Below the pieces are notes generated by a model, which was given only the letters and a program-made list of their open reading frames with translations, made no database searches and was not told the origin of the DNA. From IMG/VR virus record IMGVR_UViG_3300034159_000140, positions 1-40,692 of that record: a DNA stretch of 40,692 bases, one strand, 5' to 3'. Each line of letters begins with the position of its first letter. The stretch's first letter is position 1. This DNA comes from a virus. The position numbers and the translations under genes were made by a program. Below, one piece after another: positions 2,769 through 34,392 of the stretch.

Positions 2769-2844
2769 GCTCCCGCAAAAAACGGGAGTCGGGATTAGCC
2801 TCCCGGAACTACGGCGCACCAGCGCCACCAGAGGCGCTTTTTTT
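2769..2844 (+). ncRNA. c4: C4-like antisense RNA 1
   Basis: A short RNA of about 75 nt is predicted between the promoter and an intrinsic terminator. It has two perfect hairpins (CTCCCG/CGGGAG at 2770-2788 and CGGGA/TCCCG at 2790-2805). Its boxes TTAGCCT (2795-2801), CCGG (2803-2806) and CTACGG (2809-2814) are complementary, in order, to AGGCTAA (2902-2908), CCGG (2896-2899) and CCGTAG (2890-2895) in the leader downstream. C4 RNAs of P1 and P7 control antirepressor genes from the same position. Assignment to that family is by architecture, not by a model search. Confidence 0.65.
2821..2844 (+). terminator. Intrinsic terminator ending C4-like RNA 1
   Basis: AGCGCC and GGCGCT form a perfect 6-bp stem with a 6-base loop, followed by seven T. 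It separates the small RNA from the KilA-N leader, so the antirepressor is read only by transcripts that pass it. Confidence 0.9.
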
Positions 2845-2853
2845 GTGCCCAAT

Positions 2854-2972
2854 GGTGGGTTGTACGAGGGACTCGAAAGGGTCGCCGGTCCGTAGCCGGT
2901 AAGGCTAACCTCGTACAGCCCGCCACCCTTCTGGTTAGCCTCAGTGTTGGCGGTCTCCAACTTTCTACGGAG
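2854..2972 (+). promoter_or_regulatory. Structured leader of the KilA-N gene
   Basis: A 16-bp stem (2854-2869 with 2909-2924, two G-U pairs) encloses 39 bases that hold the segment complementary to the small RNA. The same segment can instead pair downstream: AGGCTAACC (2902-2910) with GGTTAGCCT (2933-2941), and CCGTAG (2890-2895) with CTACGG (2965-2970), which overlaps the ribosome site CGGAG. The leader therefore has at least two exclusive folds, one hiding the ribosome site. Confidence 0.7.
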
Positions 2973-24575: not shown

Positions 24576-25292
24576 TTAATAGCTCAAAAGGGGTTGCTTA
24601 GCCTGCTTTTTCGCCATCGCCCGAACTTTGCGAATCGAGATCGGCGGGCGGATGACGGCGGTGATAAATTCGTGGTCCAGGGCGACCAGTTGGTCTCGGT
24701 GATGTGCCGCCAGCACGTGCAAGCCTTCCAAGTCCGCCTTCGCTTCCTCGAAATGTTCCGGGCGCAGTTCGCTGGAGCTGCGTAGCCCAAACTGAAACCG
24801 AAGCCGTTCGTTGACCGCAAAACCGGCTCGTTCGCTAAATTTGCAGCAGATGGAAATGAGGTGAATCAGATCGTGGAGGACGATCCACTGTTCGGTGGTC
24901 AGGCCAGGCTGCGCGGGCTGTTCAACTATCTCCTTCACCCGGAAGTACAGCTTGACCAACTGGCGCTGGATTTGCCAACTCAGATTATCGGTGAACGATT
25001 TGACCAGCATCAGATAGCCGGATTCGGTGATGAAGGTAATTTCCCGTGCGCCGTCCTTCAATACGCCAGAATGGCTAGTACGAAATTCGTCCAAGCTTTT
25101 AGAATCAGTGACATAGAAGAAGTCTTCACTGTCAATGAACCGTTTGCGGTTGGTAGCAAAATTCCGCTTTGCGGTCCCTTCGACCCGGTTATGTACCTTA
25201 TCGATTAAGGCGAAAGTGAGGACGGGTTGGCCTTGATAGGTCAGGTAGGGAATTTCAACTTCATTGGAAATGCGGACAAGCTGCGTAGACAT
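24576..25292 (-). CDS. ORF6N domain antirepressor-type protein
   Basis: 238 residues from ATG 25292, with AGGAAAG at a good distance; the TTG-based longer start at 25325 is not supported. The ORF6N domain spans residues ~5-105: the VLTFALIDKVHNRVEGTAKR segment, then NRKRFIDSEDFFYV and ITESGYLMLVKSFTDNLSWQ. The C-terminal part is a helical domain with Leu/His-rich stretches. ORF6N proteins occur with KilA-N and Ant domains in phage antirepressors. This gene lies on the minus strand in the middle of head genes, under a C4-like leader, and so is separately regulated from the KilA-N gene. Confidence 0.85.
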   Translation of the reverse strand: MSTQLVRISNEVEIPYLTYQGQPVLTFALIDKVHNRVEGTAKRNFATNRKRFIDSEDFFYVTDSKSLDEFRTSHSGVLKDGAREITFITESGYLMLVKSFTDNLSWQIQRQLVKLYFRVKEIVEQPAQPGLTTEQWIVLHDLIHLISICCKFSERAGFAVNERLRFQFGLRSSSELRPEHFEEAKADLEGLHVLAAHHRDQLVALDHEFITAVIRPPISIRKVRAMAKKQAKQPLLSY

Positions 25293-25380
25293 GATGACTT
25301 TCCTGTACGACTCTAAGTTACCCAAAGCGGAAGGGTGCCGGGAGGCTTAGAACCGCGTACAGACGGCGGGCGCTATTCAA
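25293..25380 (-). promoter_or_regulatory. Structured leader of the ORF6N gene
   Basis: On the minus strand the segment CTGTACG (25362-25356) plus GGTTCTAAG (25354-25346) can pair with CTTAGA (25317-25312) plus CGTACAG (25309-25303), just upstream of and overlapping the ribosome site. It can equally pair with the upstream small RNA, which carries the same CTTAGA and CGTACAG boxes. The two folds exclude each other, as in the KilA-N leader. Confidence 0.65.
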
Positions 25381-25417
25381 CATATTCACGCCCCCTCCCG
25401 ACGTTGATCGGGCGGGC

Positions 25418-25447
25418 AAAAAAATACCGCAGGGCTTTCGGGTGCGG
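25418..25447 (-). terminator. Intrinsic terminator ending C4-like RNA 2
   Basis: On the minus strand CCGCA and TGCGG form the stem, followed by TA and seven T (A-run at 25418-25424 on plus). It separates the small RNA from the ORF6N leader, matching the first locus. Confidence 0.8.
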
Positions 25448-25482
25448 ATTCCGCTGTACGATGGAGGTTCTAAGGCTCCGAT
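25418..25482 (-). ncRNA. c4: C4-like antisense RNA 2
   Basis: A predicted RNA of about 65 nt between the promoter at 25516-25489 and the terminator at 25418. Its boxes CTTAGAACC (25474-25466) and CGTACAG (25460-25454) are perfectly complementary to GGTTCTAAG (25354-25346) and CTGTACG (25362-25356) in the ORF6N leader. A small GCGGAATCCGC hairpin lies between the boxes and the terminator. The order promoter, small RNA, terminator, target, antirepressor gene is that of P1/P7 C4. Confidence 0.65.
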
Positions 25483-25488
25483 GTCAAG

Positions 25489-25516
25489 CGTATATCCACT
25501 AGGGCGAAGGGGTCAA
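25489..25516 (-). promoter_or_regulatory. Promoter of C4-like RNA 2
   Basis: TTGACC (25516-25511) and TATACG (25494-25489) with a 16-base spacer. The -35 context CGCTTGACCCC is the same as in C4 locus 1. It lies back to back with the HigA promoter, so the two regulators may influence each other. Confidence 0.55.
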
Positions 25517-25535
25517 GCGGATAGGGGTTGCAATC

Positions 25536-25553
25536 ATAGCAAATTGGCTATAT
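25536..25553 (+). promoter_or_regulatory. HigA promoter and palindromic operator
   Basis: ATAGC-A-AATT-G-GCTAT (14 of 16 bases symmetric) overlaps a TATATA box at about 25549-25554, which lies 8 bases before the ATG at 25562. The gene is therefore probably leaderless and autoregulated by binding at its own -10, as antitoxins of the HigA type are. Confidence 0.5.
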
Positions 25554-25561
25554 ATAAGGCC

Positions 25562-25855
25562 ATGACCAAAGTTCGTGATTTACACGCGGGCTGGATGAAA
25601 GACCCCGAGTATCGGGCGGAGTACGAACGACTGGGACCGGAATTTGATCTGGCCCTCGCGCTCATCAAAGCCCGGTCTCAGGCCGGGTTGACTCAGGAAG
25701 AACTCGCCGCGCGAATGAAAACCACCCAATCGGTGGTCGCTCGGCTGGAAGGAGGGCACGGGAAGCCGTCTACTCGGACGCTGGAAAAAGTGGCCAAAGC
25801 CACTGGCATGCGGTTGAGGATCAGCTTTGAACGTGACGAGTTTGCTGCTGCTTGA
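25562..25855 (+). CDS. Solitary HigA-like antitoxin/XRE regulator
   Basis: 97 residues from ATG 25562. An XRE helix-turn-helix occupies residues ~43-75 (TQEELAARMKTTQSVVARLE, with the following KPSTRTLEKVAKATG) and the end LRISFERDEF is typical of HigA antitoxins. HigA normally follows a HigB toxin gene; none lies upstream here, and the downstream gene is convergent. It may be an orphan antitoxin that counters a host toxin, or a plain regulator. Its 3' end overlaps the head morphogenesis gene on the other strand by 35 bases. Confidence 0.75.
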   Translation: MTKVRDLHAGWMKDPEYRAEYERLGPEFDLALALIKARSQAGLTQEELAARMKTTQSVVARLEGGHGKPSTRTLEKVAKATGMRLRISFERDEFAAA

Positions 25856-30365: not shown

Positions 30366-31302
30366 CCCCTTCCCGCTGATGCTCAATCAGCACCGGATCG
30401 CGGGCTTGCCGGGTCCGGCTGTTCTCAATCAGTCCCTTCAACGATTCCAGGGCCAAGGTTTGCCGTTCCGCAAACCCGGACAGCACCTCCTCCTGCTGTT
30501 CCTTATGCGCGATAAACCCCGCCAGTTCCTGATCTTCTTCCTTCGCTTTCGGCGTCATCCGCATATCGCCCAGCGACAGGTTGTTGCGGGTGAGCAATTC
30601 AAACAAGGGCTTAAGCAGCGGATGGGCGCTGATCTCCTCAATCAGCCGTAGATTCCCCTCCGAATCGGTGTATTCCGCCAAGCAGAAATTGCCGTCTTTG
30701 TCGGTGTACCACTTCGGCGAACGAATCTCGACTCCGGTCCTGACGATCGCCAGGATGATGTCATCGACAATCGCCTGGATATTGGCTTGCAGGTCGGCCC
30801 GTAGATTCACCAGCCCCTTCGGATCGCCCTGCTGAAACGCGATCCGATGCCGCATATAGAGTTCAGTGCGATGCAGACACGCGCCATGATCCCACGTTCC
30901 ACAGCCCTGATTGAGGTACGGACAGCCGTTGCAATGGGGATAGCCACCCGGTCGTTGCGGAAAGAACACCGCCACTTTCGCCGTAAGGCCGTGTTTCATA
31001 CGGTTAAAGCGAGTGCGCCGGGTCATCTCCGGCGTGTGTTCCATCTTGCGGAACCGTTCGGCGCTGGCCGCGCGCGCTTCCGGGCTGGGCGTGGGAACGC
31101 CCTTCGCCCACATCGCCATTAACCCCTGCTCCCAATGCACCTGTCCGCACTCCGCCCCACACTGCGGGCATAGGCCAAAGTAGCGCCACGGGTGATGCTC
31201 ACGGTCCGGCGCATCCTCCACCCGACCGGGCTTGGCCTTCCAGATCTGATTGCAGGGCTTGCAGCGGAAAGTGATCTCATCGAACGGCGCGTCGGCTTTC
31301 AT
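30355..31302 (-). CDS. Probable small terminase subunit with Cys-rich clusters
   Basis: 315 residues from ATG 31302, in ATGA overlap with the serine recombinase stop. Two Cys clusters are visible: a zinc ribbon (C-K-P-C near 14-17 with C-P-Q-C-G-A-E-C near 45-52), and HCNGCPYLNQGCGTWDHGAC around residues 123-142, which could bind a metal or an iron-sulfur cluster. The rest is helical. RFNRMKHGLTAK resembles segments found in phage terminase small subunits. It lies directly upstream of the large terminase cluster. The family assignment is moderate; the Cys clusters are unusual for a small terminase. Confidence 0.5.
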   Translation of the reverse strand: MKADAPFDEITFRCKPCNQIWKAKPGRVEDAPDREHHPWRYFGLCPQCGAECGQVHWEQGLMAMWAKGVPTPSPEARAASAERFRKMEHTPEMTRRTRFNRMKHGLTAKVAVFFPQRPGGYPHCNGCPYLNQGCGTWDHGACLHRTELYMRHRIAFQQGDPKGLVNLRADLQANIQAIVDDIILAIVRTGVEIRSPKWYTDKDGNFCLAEYTDSEGNLRLIEEISAHPLLKPLFELLTRNNLSLGDMRMTPKAKEEDQELAGFIAHKEQQEEVLSGFAERQTLALESLKGLIENSRTRQARDPVLIEHQREGDDA

Positions 31303-32939
31303 CGGCGCGCTCTTTTCCGCAACCGATCAGGCAGTGGACGAACCAGCGTGACAGTTCCTAGACAGTCCGGTTTTGGGAGCCAACTCAATGATCTAGGAAC
31401 CGCCTGTTTTACCAGGCGGTTCGGGTCATATTCAATCCGAATCGAATCTGCTTCCACGGTAATGTCCTTGATGAAGCTCGCAAAAAGCGCCCGCGCTTTT
31501 GAGGGATTATAGTCTGATTTGATCGTGGTAACGAGCGCATCCATCAACGATTTTGCATCAATATCAAACAGTTCTACCTGCGGCGGTTGTTCCGCGTCAA
31601 TCCTGACTAATTCGCTCTCGAATTTCTTCAATTGCCCGTTATTTTCACGTAATCTGGCCGCTAAATCGCCTAAATGGGGCGCCTCTCGGCCCAATTCTTC
31701 CAGTACCTCATAGAGCTTGGCGTTGCGCCGCGCCACGGCTTGGCGTTGCGCCTCCACCGCCAGCCGTCGCGCTTGGCGTTCTTCGTGCCAGCGCCCCGCT
31801 AACTCTTGCAAGTCGCTGACCAGCCCGCGCAGGTTCTGCGGAGTGAACAGATCTTCGCACAGCAAATCGACCAGCCAATCATCCATCTCTCGAGCCGGTA
31901 ACCGCCGAGTCACGCACGCGCCGCCCTGTTGCGCGGTCCGGCAGTTGTAATAGCTGTAGCGTTTTGACCGGCCCTTGGCGGTTTCGATCAGCAACGCCGC
32001 ACCACAACGGCCACATTTCAGCAATCCGGTGAAAAAATGGCGGCTGATCGGCGAACCACCGACCGCATACTCGCCCGGCGTCGTGTTCAGCGCATCGCGA
32101 TCTAGCAGCCGTTGCACGGTCTCCCAGAGCGCCCGATCAATCAGCGGCGGGTGAGCTTCCACGATCACGCAATCCGCATCGGGCATCGTGCGCCGTACCC
32201 CGTCCAGGCGCAGCCGTCTCCCAAACACAATCTGGCCGATCATCGCCCGATTCCGCAACAACGCCAGCACCGAGCTTTTATGCCAACGATGCTGACGGTT
32301 CATCAGCCCGTCGGCATTCAGCGCCACGGCAATCGCCCGGGCGCCCTGACCTTGCGCCCGTTGCTGAAAGATGCGCTTCACCGTGGCCGCTTCTTCCGCG
32401 ACCCCCTCCAGCCGTCGCCGCCGAGGCTCTTCTGGCGCGGGCGCAGCCCGGTAGCCAAAGGGCGGACAGCCCCCCGCCCAAAACCCGCCTTGCGCCGCTC
32501 GCATCATGGAGCGCCGCGTATCCGCCGAGATTTGACGTGAATAGAACTCGTCGAACAGCTCCATCACTCCTTCAGTCAGCCAACCGCCGTCGCTGGATCG
32601 GTCAATATCCATCGACACAAAGAGCAACTCGGTTCCTGTTTTCGATAAGCGCCGCTTGTAAAGCTGAGCATCTAACCGGTTTCGCGCAAACCGTGAGGTA
32701 GACCAAGTGATGAAATAGGTCGGCGTGTGCGCTTCGCAAAAGAGAATCGCCGCCTGGAACGCGGGCCGGCCGTCATGCTGTCCGCTGATGCCTTCATCGG
32801 CGAACACCCGCAACACCTCCGCGCCCAATTGCGTCGCTCGCTCCTCGCAGCGCTGGCGTTGCGAAGCAATCGGCAGTTCATCTTCGGCTTGCCGCGCCGT
32901 GCTCACCCGGCAGTAAATCACCGCCGTTTTATCGGCCAT
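31299..32939 (-). CDS. Large serine recombinase/integrase
   Basis: 546 residues from ATG 32939 with GGAG upstream. Resolvase domain with catalytic Ser13 in YCRVSTARQ, the SRFARNRLDAQ motif near 82-92, and the recombinase domain (GGFWAGGCPPFGYR at 151-164). A zinc ribbon is formed by Cys309, Cys312, Cys333 and Cys342. A long coiled-coil follows (RLAVEAQRQAVARRNAKLYE). All parts of an active large serine integrase are present, with no frame break. Unusually it is coupled by ATGA to the terminase cluster and coexists with a tyrosine recombinase. Confidence 0.9.
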   Translation of the reverse strand: MADKTAVIYCRVSTARQAEDELPIASQRQRCEERATQLGAEVLRVFADEGISGQHDGRPAFQAAILFCEAHTPTYFITWSTSRFARNRLDAQLYKRRLSKTGTELLFVSMDIDRSSDGGWLTEGVMELFDEFYSRQISADTRRSMMRAAQGGFWAGGCPPFGYRAAPAPEEPRRRRLEGVAEEAATVKRIFQQRAQGQGARAIAVALNADGLMNRQHRWHKSSVLALLRNRAMIGQIVFGRRLRLDGVRRTMPDADCVIVEAHPPLIDRALWETVQRLLDRDALNTTPGEYAVGGSPISRHFFTGLLKCGRCGAALLIETAKGRSKRYSYYNCRTAQQGGACVTRRLPAREMDDWLVDLLCEDLFTPQNLRGLVSDLQELAGRWHEERQARRLAVEAQRQAVARRNAKLYEVLEELGREAPHLGDLAARLRENNGQLKKFESELVRIDAEQPPQVELFDIDAKSLMDALVTTIKSDYNPSKARALFASFIKDITVEADSIRIEYDPNRLVKQAVPRSLSWLPKPDCLGTVTLVRPLPDRLRKRARR

Positions 32940-33291
32940 TTTGCCGCTCCAAAGTTGGGTTTGTGTGCAGACATTCAGGTAACCACCTACCTATCCGGCT
33001 CTTTCCGATCCTATCGCCGAACCCCCACCCCTACCCTCAATCCGTTGTTTGCTCGCAACAGAATCAACGGAAATTCAAGATTATCAGTGAAGTCTTGAGT
33101 CTTATAGCCATAATCAGTTATGGCTATAAGAATTAAAGTGTATGGAAATAGTGCGCTATTTCGACTAGCCCTATAAAGATTCGCTTGCATCATCTATTGC
33201 TGTCCTAACTACCTTGGGGCGGCCAACCGATGAGCGGTTAGGTTATCGAACACAGACGGGACATGTCTTTGCTGTATATCAAAGCTTCCGA
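32940..33291. other. Non-coding region between the two recombinase genes
   Basis: 352 bases without a convincing gene. Visible elements are the perfect 14-bp inverted repeat at 33100-33131, a 5-bp hairpin AACCG/CGGTT near 33218, and the palindrome ATTAACGGGTTAAT at 33292-33305 at the 3' end of the tyrosine recombinase gene. I see no good promoter for the serine recombinase gene. It is the most natural place for attP. Confidence 0.6.
33100..33131. other. Candidate attP core or recombinase site (perfect inverted repeat)
   Basis: TCTTATAGCCATAA and TTATGGCTATAAGA are perfect 14-bp inverted arms around TCAG. No T-run follows on either strand, so it is not a terminator. It lies 160 bases upstream of the serine recombinase start and 160 bases past the tyrosine recombinase stop. 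Symmetric arms of this length suit a serine integrase attP, or the core of a Xer-type site, or a regulator binding site; which one is not decided by sequence. Confidence 0.45.
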
Positions 33292-34392
33292 TTAACGGGT
33301 TAATGGGCGCGTCATTGCTCGCATTTGCTTCGCTAAATCGCTAACTGGAAGGTTCATCTTGCCCAGCGGGTTAGCTCTATCCACCACCTCAGCCATCTTG
33401 CGCATCGCCAGGTGGGTATAAGCCTCCGTGGTTTCCGCTTTGGCATGGCCTAACAGGGCCTTACGCATCAACAGATCAACGTCTTCTTCCGCCAGTTCTG
33501 TCCCATACAGATGACGTAGCGCATGGGCATGACACACGTTGGCGGGAACACCGGCTTGTTTGCCGTAGTTCCGAATAATGTTGTGGATGTTATGCCGGCT
33601 CAGGCGGCGATACTCCCCATAGTGCTCGTGGGCCATAACCCGACTGTTCCGCAAATTGACGAACAGCACCTGGTCCCCGTTTGGCAACACCCGATTGATC
33701 TCATCAAGGGCGCTATGGCCCAGATAAGCCCGGATCATCAGCGCTGCTTCGTTCGGCGCGGGCACCATCCGCTCCTTTTTTCCTTTCTCGGTCAGGCGAA
33801 TCGTGAGCCGTTCAGTGCCCGCCTTGCCCTCAGTCCAAATCAGATCACCCTCGTTCAGGCCGGTTAATCCACTAACCCGGCACCCCGTGCCCGTCAAGAC
33901 AAACAGCATCGCTGCATCGCGCAGCCCGATGAAGGTGTTGAGGTCGGGTTGCATCAATATCTTTTCCGCATCCCGTAATTGAGCGGGTCGAGGTAAGCGG
34001 GTGGCGGATCGTGGGGTGGGCAGGTCGCGGGCCGGGTCTTCTGCGATCAAGTGCATTCGCTTGCACCAGAAATAGAAATGACGGATCGCGGTGACGTTCA
34101 CCTTACGAGTGGGCGGGCGCTGCTTGCGCTGGTGAAGAACCAGCCCGGTGTAGCGTTCCAGTTGTTCCGGGGTAGCGGCCAGCAGATCGACTCCATGCGG
34201 CGGTTGTTCGGCCAGCCATGCGGCCAATCGATCCAGGTACAGCCGATACAGGGCGACGGTGTTTTTGCTGCGCCCCTCGTTGAATTCCTTGTACTGAATC
34301 CAGCGCTCCACCAACGGATGAGGGGGAGACGGTGGAGCGTCCTCGTTCCGGCAGAGGGTTGGTTTCGGGGGGGCATTCACTGTCACATCCAT
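33292..34392 (-). CDS. Tyrosine recombinase (XerC/D-like)
   Basis: 366 residues from ATG 34392 behind GGAG. The N-terminal core-binding domain covers ~25-120 (RWIQYKEFNEGRSKNTVALY). The catalytic domain has Arg172 in GCRVSGL, a Lys in TEKGKKER near 203-206, His290 and Arg293 in HALRH, His316 in LGHAKAE and nucleophile Tyr325 in EAYTHLA; all catalytic residues are present. Xer-like size and motifs suggest either integration or multimer resolution of a circular form. The promoter region directly upstream contains the start of the iteron array. Confidence 0.9.
   Translation of the reverse strand: MDVTVNAPPKPTLCRNEDAPPSPPHPLVERWIQYKEFNEGRSKNTVALYRLYLDRLAAWLAEQPPHGVDLLAATPEQLERYTGLVLHQRKQRPPTRKVNVTAIRHFYFWCKRMHLIAEDPARDLPTPRSATRLPRPAQLRDAEKILMQPDLNTFIGLRDAAMLFVLTGTGCRVSGLTGLNEGDLIWTEGKAGTERLTIRLTEKGKKERMVPAPNEAALMIRAYLGHSALDEINRVLPNGDQVLFVNLRNSRVMAHEHYGEYRRLSRHNIHNIIRNYGKQAGVPANVCHAHALRHLYGTELAEEDVDLLMRKALLGHAKAETTEAYTHLAMRKMAEVVDRANPLGKMNLPVSDLAKQMRAMTRPLTR

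Follow-up and report, generated by a model that had tools for sequence, protein, structure and literature searches.

A putative three-part C4-type RNA switch with an sRNA-Xcc1-like antisense RNA upstream of an ORF6N gene in a viral genome

We analysed a stretch of viral DNA of 40,692 nucleotides (the window) and conclude that the region preceding its ORF6N-domain gene, locus 2, is very probably an RNA switch of C4 kind, built of three parts, by which the ORF6N antirepressor is silenced in the prophage. On the minus strand this locus contains, from 5' to 3', a promoter, a terminated small RNA, a three-stem RNA, a ribosome-binding site (RBS) and the ORF6N gene, and one pair of boxes occurs in it three times: in sense in the small terminated RNA (the decoy), in antisense in the three-stem RNA, and again in sense over the Shine-Dalgarno sequence. 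An earlier note on this DNA had described a small RNA, a terminator, a leader and two box sets at the ORF6N gene, all of which we found in place on the minus strand; the set over the Shine-Dalgarno sequence is added here.

Parts of locus 2 and their antisense RNA

The features of locus 2 are as follows.

25493..25516, minus: predicted promoter read from the sequence, TTGACC (-35) and candidate -10 TACGCT with an 18-base spacer
25418..25484, minus: decoy, a small terminated RNA of ~65 nt and IsrK/a1b1-like target mimic, made of a hairpin, box B and a terminator
25474-25466, minus: decoy box A, CTTAGAACC, in the hairpin loop, 9/9 complementary to 25354-25346
25460-25454, minus: decoy box B, CGTACAG, followed by GCGG, 7/7 complementary to 25362-25356
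25418..25447, minus: intrinsic terminator, CCGCAcccgaaagcccTGCGG plus TATTTTTTT, with stem CCGCA/TGCGG (25447-25443/25431-25427) followed by TATTTTTTT
25402-25329, minus: C4-like antisense RNA of sRNA-Xcc1 type with three stems, from the RF02221 match and predicted fold
25362-25356, minus: antisense box B', CTGTACG, in the third-stem loop, complementary to box B of decoy and target
25354-25346, minus: antisense box A', GGTTCTAAG, in a single-stranded linker, complementary to box A of decoy and target
25298..25317, minus: target, CTTAGAG (25317-25311) and CGTACAG (25309-25303) over the Shine-Dalgarno sequence AGGAAAG, from the sequence
24576..25292, minus: gene of the 238-aa ORF6N-domain protein, ATG at 25292-25290 (Pfam ORF6N 4.2e-13; PHROG anti-repressor 2.4e-41)

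The transcript is expected to start at about 25483, and the protein is probably an antirepressor, as its PHROG annotation suggests. A small HTH_3 regulator gene (25562-25855, plus strand) lies divergently ~45 bases from the locus 2 promoter and could regulate it. The decoy hairpin reads GGAG-ccttagaac-CTCC. The terminator is weak, with a predicted energy of -5.4 kcal/mol that is equalled by an alternative hairpin (likewise -5.4 kcal/mol), and its arm CCGC has two possible partners, the GCGG beside decoy box B and the GCGG of the terminator itself. It fits the motif CCGCACCCGNNAGN{3,5}GCGG, for which shuffles gave an expectation of 0. The terminator loop (25433-25442, minus) keeps CACCCGNNAG, as do the terminators of most related loci; this conservation goes well beyond what a terminator needs, and the loop looks able to pair with the outer stem of the antisense RNA on its 5' strand. 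When the region was shuffled 20,000 times with dinucleotides preserved, the box order a-b ... b'-a' ... a-b never arose, a statistic picked after inspection of the sequence, and the comparative tests given below therefore weigh more.

It is the middle hairpin (25402-25329) that represents the C4-like antisense RNA, and this hairpin lies inside what the earlier note had called the leader. That note was right about the C4-like design and mistaken in casting the terminated small RNA as the C4-like repressor, since this RNA carries the target sequence, and so resembles a1b1/IsrK. The middle hairpin is predicted to fold at -33.3 kcal/mol into stems P1, P2 and P3, and it matches sRNA-Xcc1 (RF02221) over the full length with 41.5 bits (E 3.3e-6), under the curated cut-off of 53. 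No match to C4 (RF01695) was obtained at locus 2 at E<=10 within 25250-25560, nor window-wide at E<=0.5, and a covariance-model search gave no isrK (RF01394) match at 25418-25484. Two traits of C4 are present at locus 2 nevertheless: three stems with an antisense loop b' and a linker a' in the predicted fold, and boxes that pair around the RBS of a putative antirepressor gene. In the second stem of the antisense RNA (25391-25366, minus), two AATA motifs persist, possibly as a protein or RNA contact; the short Competibacteraceae type, from which the distal helix has been lost, still has them.

Covariation and recurrence in related loci

The two closest relatives of the ORF6N protein, 57 and 60% identical to it, are encoded in the Competibacteraceae genomes UBA6584 and UBA2788, and both have the same RNA upstream, recognized by RF02221 at 39.5 bits with the whole model covered. 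Going from the window to UBA6584 and then to UBA2788, box B is CGTACAG, CACGTAG and CGCAAAG, the antisense loop B' is CTGTACG, CTACGTG and CTTTGCG, and box A is CTTAGA, CTAGAA and CTAGTA. Each change occurs in all three copies and every pair is kept, so that the search for compensatory changes proposed in the earlier note, run on these two relatives, revealed strong covariation. The -10 position reads TATGCT and TAAGCT in the relatives versus TACGCT at locus 2. A scan of viral contigs with the ORF6N protein found no relatives.

RNAs of this type recur in bacterial genomes: RF02221 matched 26 of the 369 genomes sampled from the class, and within the family it matched 8 of 39. In a set of 44 bacterial loci with 41 distinct B' loops, most of which share the decoy layout of locus 2, exact 6-mer complements were present in all four places for 21 of the 44 own pairs versus 0.05% of swapped ones, the swapped controls taking in related loci. 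A first version of this comparison, with the conserved outer stem counted in, was weak; it was repeated on the boxes. A covariance model, R1, built from a MAFFT alignment, had the outer stem misaligned and only 4 pairs, and was left unused.

A second, independent route used the terminator motif alone and yielded at least 120 viral stretches, giving 107 distinct units among the matches listed. Of these 107 listed units, 84 carry all three kinds of box (decoy, antisense and target) at a length of 6 bases or more versus 2.9% after swapping, with 57 distinct boxes, and 66 carry them at 7 bases or more versus 1.0%. RF02221 was present in all 50 viral records tested from the listed terminator-motif matches, in 43 of them above the cut-off; a loose pattern, AATAN{2,6}CCCGCCGTCT, was dropped, RF02221 being found in 0 of 50 records tested with it. 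Across the 44 bacterial and 107 listed viral loci, sRNA-Xcc1-type RNAs mostly show the decoy-antisense-target layout. The genes behind them chiefly encode Bro-N, KilA-N, P22 antirepressor, Rha and AntA proteins and sometimes SymE toxins; domain matches in 49 downstream proteins comprised Bro-N (14), KilA-N (12), P22_AR_C (11) and Rha (9). SymE-like genes lie directly behind four loci in two genomes (L010, L012, L035 and L036; Pfam SymE confirmed for L010), each an sRNA-Xcc1 switch with decoy and target boxes; a search for SymE loci on plasmids found none. Aggregatibacter phage S1249 and Pasteurella Pmp1 and Pmp14 have RF02221 above the cut-off, with matching boxes, before Ant or hypothetical genes. 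Some related loci (L029-L031) are without certain parts. At L003 (3610-3685, the same as L008) a second sRNA-Xcc1-like switch, apparently without a gene of its own, lies just upstream of the ORF6N switch, and Xylella may have orphans of this sort in its five copies with a spacing of ~380 bases (PMC12189769). The present data place the sRNA-Xcc1 group with the phage immunity RNAs of C4 type.

Proposed switch and competing explanations

We propose that a single promoter gives rise to a short terminated decoy and, by read-through, to a long mRNA, the middle of which would fold into the sRNA-Xcc1-type antisense RNA and probably be cut out. The antisense loop CTGTACG and the linker GGTTCTAAG would then pair with CTTAGAG...CGTACAG at the RBS and block translation, much as the b' loop of P1 C4 is reported in PMC5320573 to block an RBS. 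Abundant decoy, carrying both boxes, would bind the antisense RNA and release the antirepressor, much as short IsrK acts on anrP by activating the read-through mRNA from which it derives (PMC4825925). A further layer of control is possible if the antisense RNA meets the decoy during its synthesis and tips the balance from the alternative hairpin to the terminator. In Xanthomonas, sRNA-Xcc1 is a discrete 88-nt RNA (PMC2996969). Transcription of the locus, processing of the RNA, the direction of its effect and the antirepressor activity of the product are what we infer. The 5' end of C4 RNA is made by RNase P at GG; excision by RNase P at locus 2 is putative, and the match there begins with GTC versus this usual GG. 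Two further findings stand against the proposed switch, namely the RF02221 score under the curated cut-off and the failure of duplex energy to single out the native partners. In the predicted fold of the free read-through leader the antisense stems are intact and the Shine-Dalgarno sequence is about half open, so silencing would need trans pairing or refolding.

Refolding within one mRNA is the essence of a purely cis-acting leader, in which the middle hairpin and the RBS would rearrange without any trans RNA. The antisense and target boxes are indeed only 29 nt apart (25346 to 25317), with a cis pairing of about -14.6 kcal/mol, but such a leader leaves unexplained the terminated third copy that covaries with the others, and its sRNA-Xcc1 and C4 relatives are separate RNAs (PMC2996969, PMC5320573); we regard it as quite improbable. 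The locus might instead be mainly a transcription attenuator, where antisense RNA on the nascent decoy would bring about early termination as with P4 CI RNA and seqA. Consistent with this, the terminator and the alternative hairpin are equal in energy, and with the boxes blocked the terminator is the fold that is predicted; however, loci L037 and L039 retain the decoy without the alternative pairing, and the boxes over the Shine-Dalgarno sequence point to translation too, which makes attenuation as the main mode doubtful.

It is very unlikely that the terminated upstream RNA is itself the C4-like repressor acting on the leader, although the earlier note is most simply read in this way. The RNA has the outward features of one, being small, ending at a terminator and matching the leader boxes with full complementarity. 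Its boxes, however, share the sense of those in the target, and because of this it can pair with the middle hairpin only and not with the Shine-Dalgarno sequence; moreover, the antisense boxes and the sRNA-Xcc1/C4-type fold belong to the middle hairpin, and short IsrK, which occupies the same position, is an activator (PMC4825925). An arrangement that is decayed or due to chance and devoid of function would fit the sub-threshold RF02221 score and the loss of parts in L029-L031, but with the shuffle result and with covariation intact in the relatives it is scarcely credible.

Known systems and a second switch in the same phage

The plan of the switch itself is known. P1/P7 C4 (RF01695) with a1b1 (RF03163) has the same order, a1b1 - antisense - a2b2, the same three-stem fold with loop b' and linker a', and the same pairing over the RBS of an antirepressor gene; locus 2 differs from it in having no C4-model match, a second stem of sRNA-Xcc1 type and an ORF6N gene versus P1 ant. 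Salmonella Gifsy-1 IsrK - orf45' (STnc1160) - anrP shares with locus 2 one promoter, a short terminated RNA with a leaky terminator, and a complementary RNA downstream followed by the antirepressor gene, whereas locus 2 lacks an isrK match and has its target directly on the ORF6N Shine-Dalgarno sequence; the reported Gifsy-1 mechanism works via a small upstream ORF with translational coupling for orf45, and the comparison with locus 2 concerns layout alone. P4 seqA - CI RNA - seqC also has a processed antisense RNA between two complementary sites, a likeness by layout alone; P4 CI differs in acting via antisense-dependent transcription termination on replication genes, of which locus 2 shows just the two competing hairpins. 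The closest covariance-model family is sRNA-Xcc1 (RF02221) of Xanthomonas and Xylella, with the same three-stem fold and 3' CACCC tail, although the distal second stem is lost at locus 2; full-score members of this family and locus 2 have the decoy, terminator and target layout in common.

What may be new is the link between sRNA-Xcc1 and C4. Rfam holds c4-a1b1 and C4 in one clan and sRNA-Xcc1 without a clan, and we found no such link in the Rfam clans or the open-access sRNA-Xcc1 literature, although an earlier statement of it is possible. In Xanthomonas and Xylella, sRNA-Xcc1 has been described as integron-borne, virulence-regulated or present in vesicles, with no target established (PMC2996969, PMC12444791, PMC12189769). 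We lean towards the view that the family as a whole forms another widespread lineage of C4-type switches, beside C4 itself, with which phages silence antirepressors. The Xanthomonas integron and Xylella vesicle copies would then be orphan immunity RNAs or C4-type repressors of the adjacent gene (e.g. the SymE toxin), and regulation of virulence would not be their main role. A family without a known role would thereby gain a concrete, testable function tied to the control of prophage induction. This role would offer a possible explanation for the position of sRNA-Xcc1 before symE in integron cassettes, a question open in PMC12444791, and for the Xylella copies a simpler candidate target than the plant genes predicted in PMC12189769.

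The same design with unrelated sequence had been noticed at another place in the window, and locus 1, before a KilA-N gene, indeed has the identical three parts with boxes of its own.

2769..2844, plus: decoy (isrK; RF01394, 51.2 bits), boxes TTAGCCT (2795-2801) and CTACGG (2809-2814)
2848..2930, plus: C4 antisense RNA (RF01695, 63.5 bits), boxes TCCGTAG (2889-2895) and AAGGCTAACC (2901-2910)
2933..2972, plus: target, GGTTAGCCT (2933-2941) and CTACGGAG (2965-2972) over the Shine-Dalgarno sequence, from the sequence
2981, plus: ATG of the KilA-N gene (KilA-N 1.8e-16)

A weak c4-a1b1 (RF03163) match also lies at 2756-2809. The -35 context common to both loci is real, as CGCTTGACCCC occurs exactly twice in the window (25519-25509, minus; 2730-2740, plus), but not distinctive, since it extends scarcely beyond the TTGACC hexamer found at other such loci. 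Nor are two C4 circuits in one phage as unusual as had been supposed: among 50 viral records from the matches listed, all selected for having one switch, so that the share is no rate for all phages, two or more C4-type elements were counted in 27 at E<=0.001 and in 21 by curated cut-offs alone. Of the same 50 records, 20 have at least two RF02221 matches and 13 have sRNA-Xcc1 plus C4. In another contig C4 and sRNA-Xcc1 lie 12 kb apart, and Acinetobacter baumannii has many C4-like RNAs (PMC5320573). This suggests that several switches, each with a box pair of its own, may operate side by side in many phages, and this would account for the separation of their antirepressors.

With their own partners the antisense boxes of locus 2 form 7/7 and 9/9 pairs, whereas with sites of locus 1 no more than 6 consecutive pairs are possible, G-U pairs allowed. 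Raw duplex energies separate the pairs less clearly: this antisense RNA has -18.3 kcal/mol with its own target versus -16.3 kcal/mol with that of locus 1. Genome-wide duplex energy was rejected as evidence, GC-rich sites elsewhere scoring like native partners. A difference of 4 nt suffices against cross-reaction between P1 and P7, according to work cited in PMC5320573. Since contiguous pairing favours the own partners, and given the P1/P7 precedent, the absence of cross-talk that the earlier note had expected from the differing boxes is plausible. CGTACAG, identical to box B of locus 2, also occurs at 2912-2918 (plus) in the outer stem of the locus 1 C4 RNA, where it is probably buried, a contact between the two antisense RNAs being possible. 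Elsewhere in the window, a large serine recombinase gene lies near a tyrosine integrase gene (31299-34392, minus).
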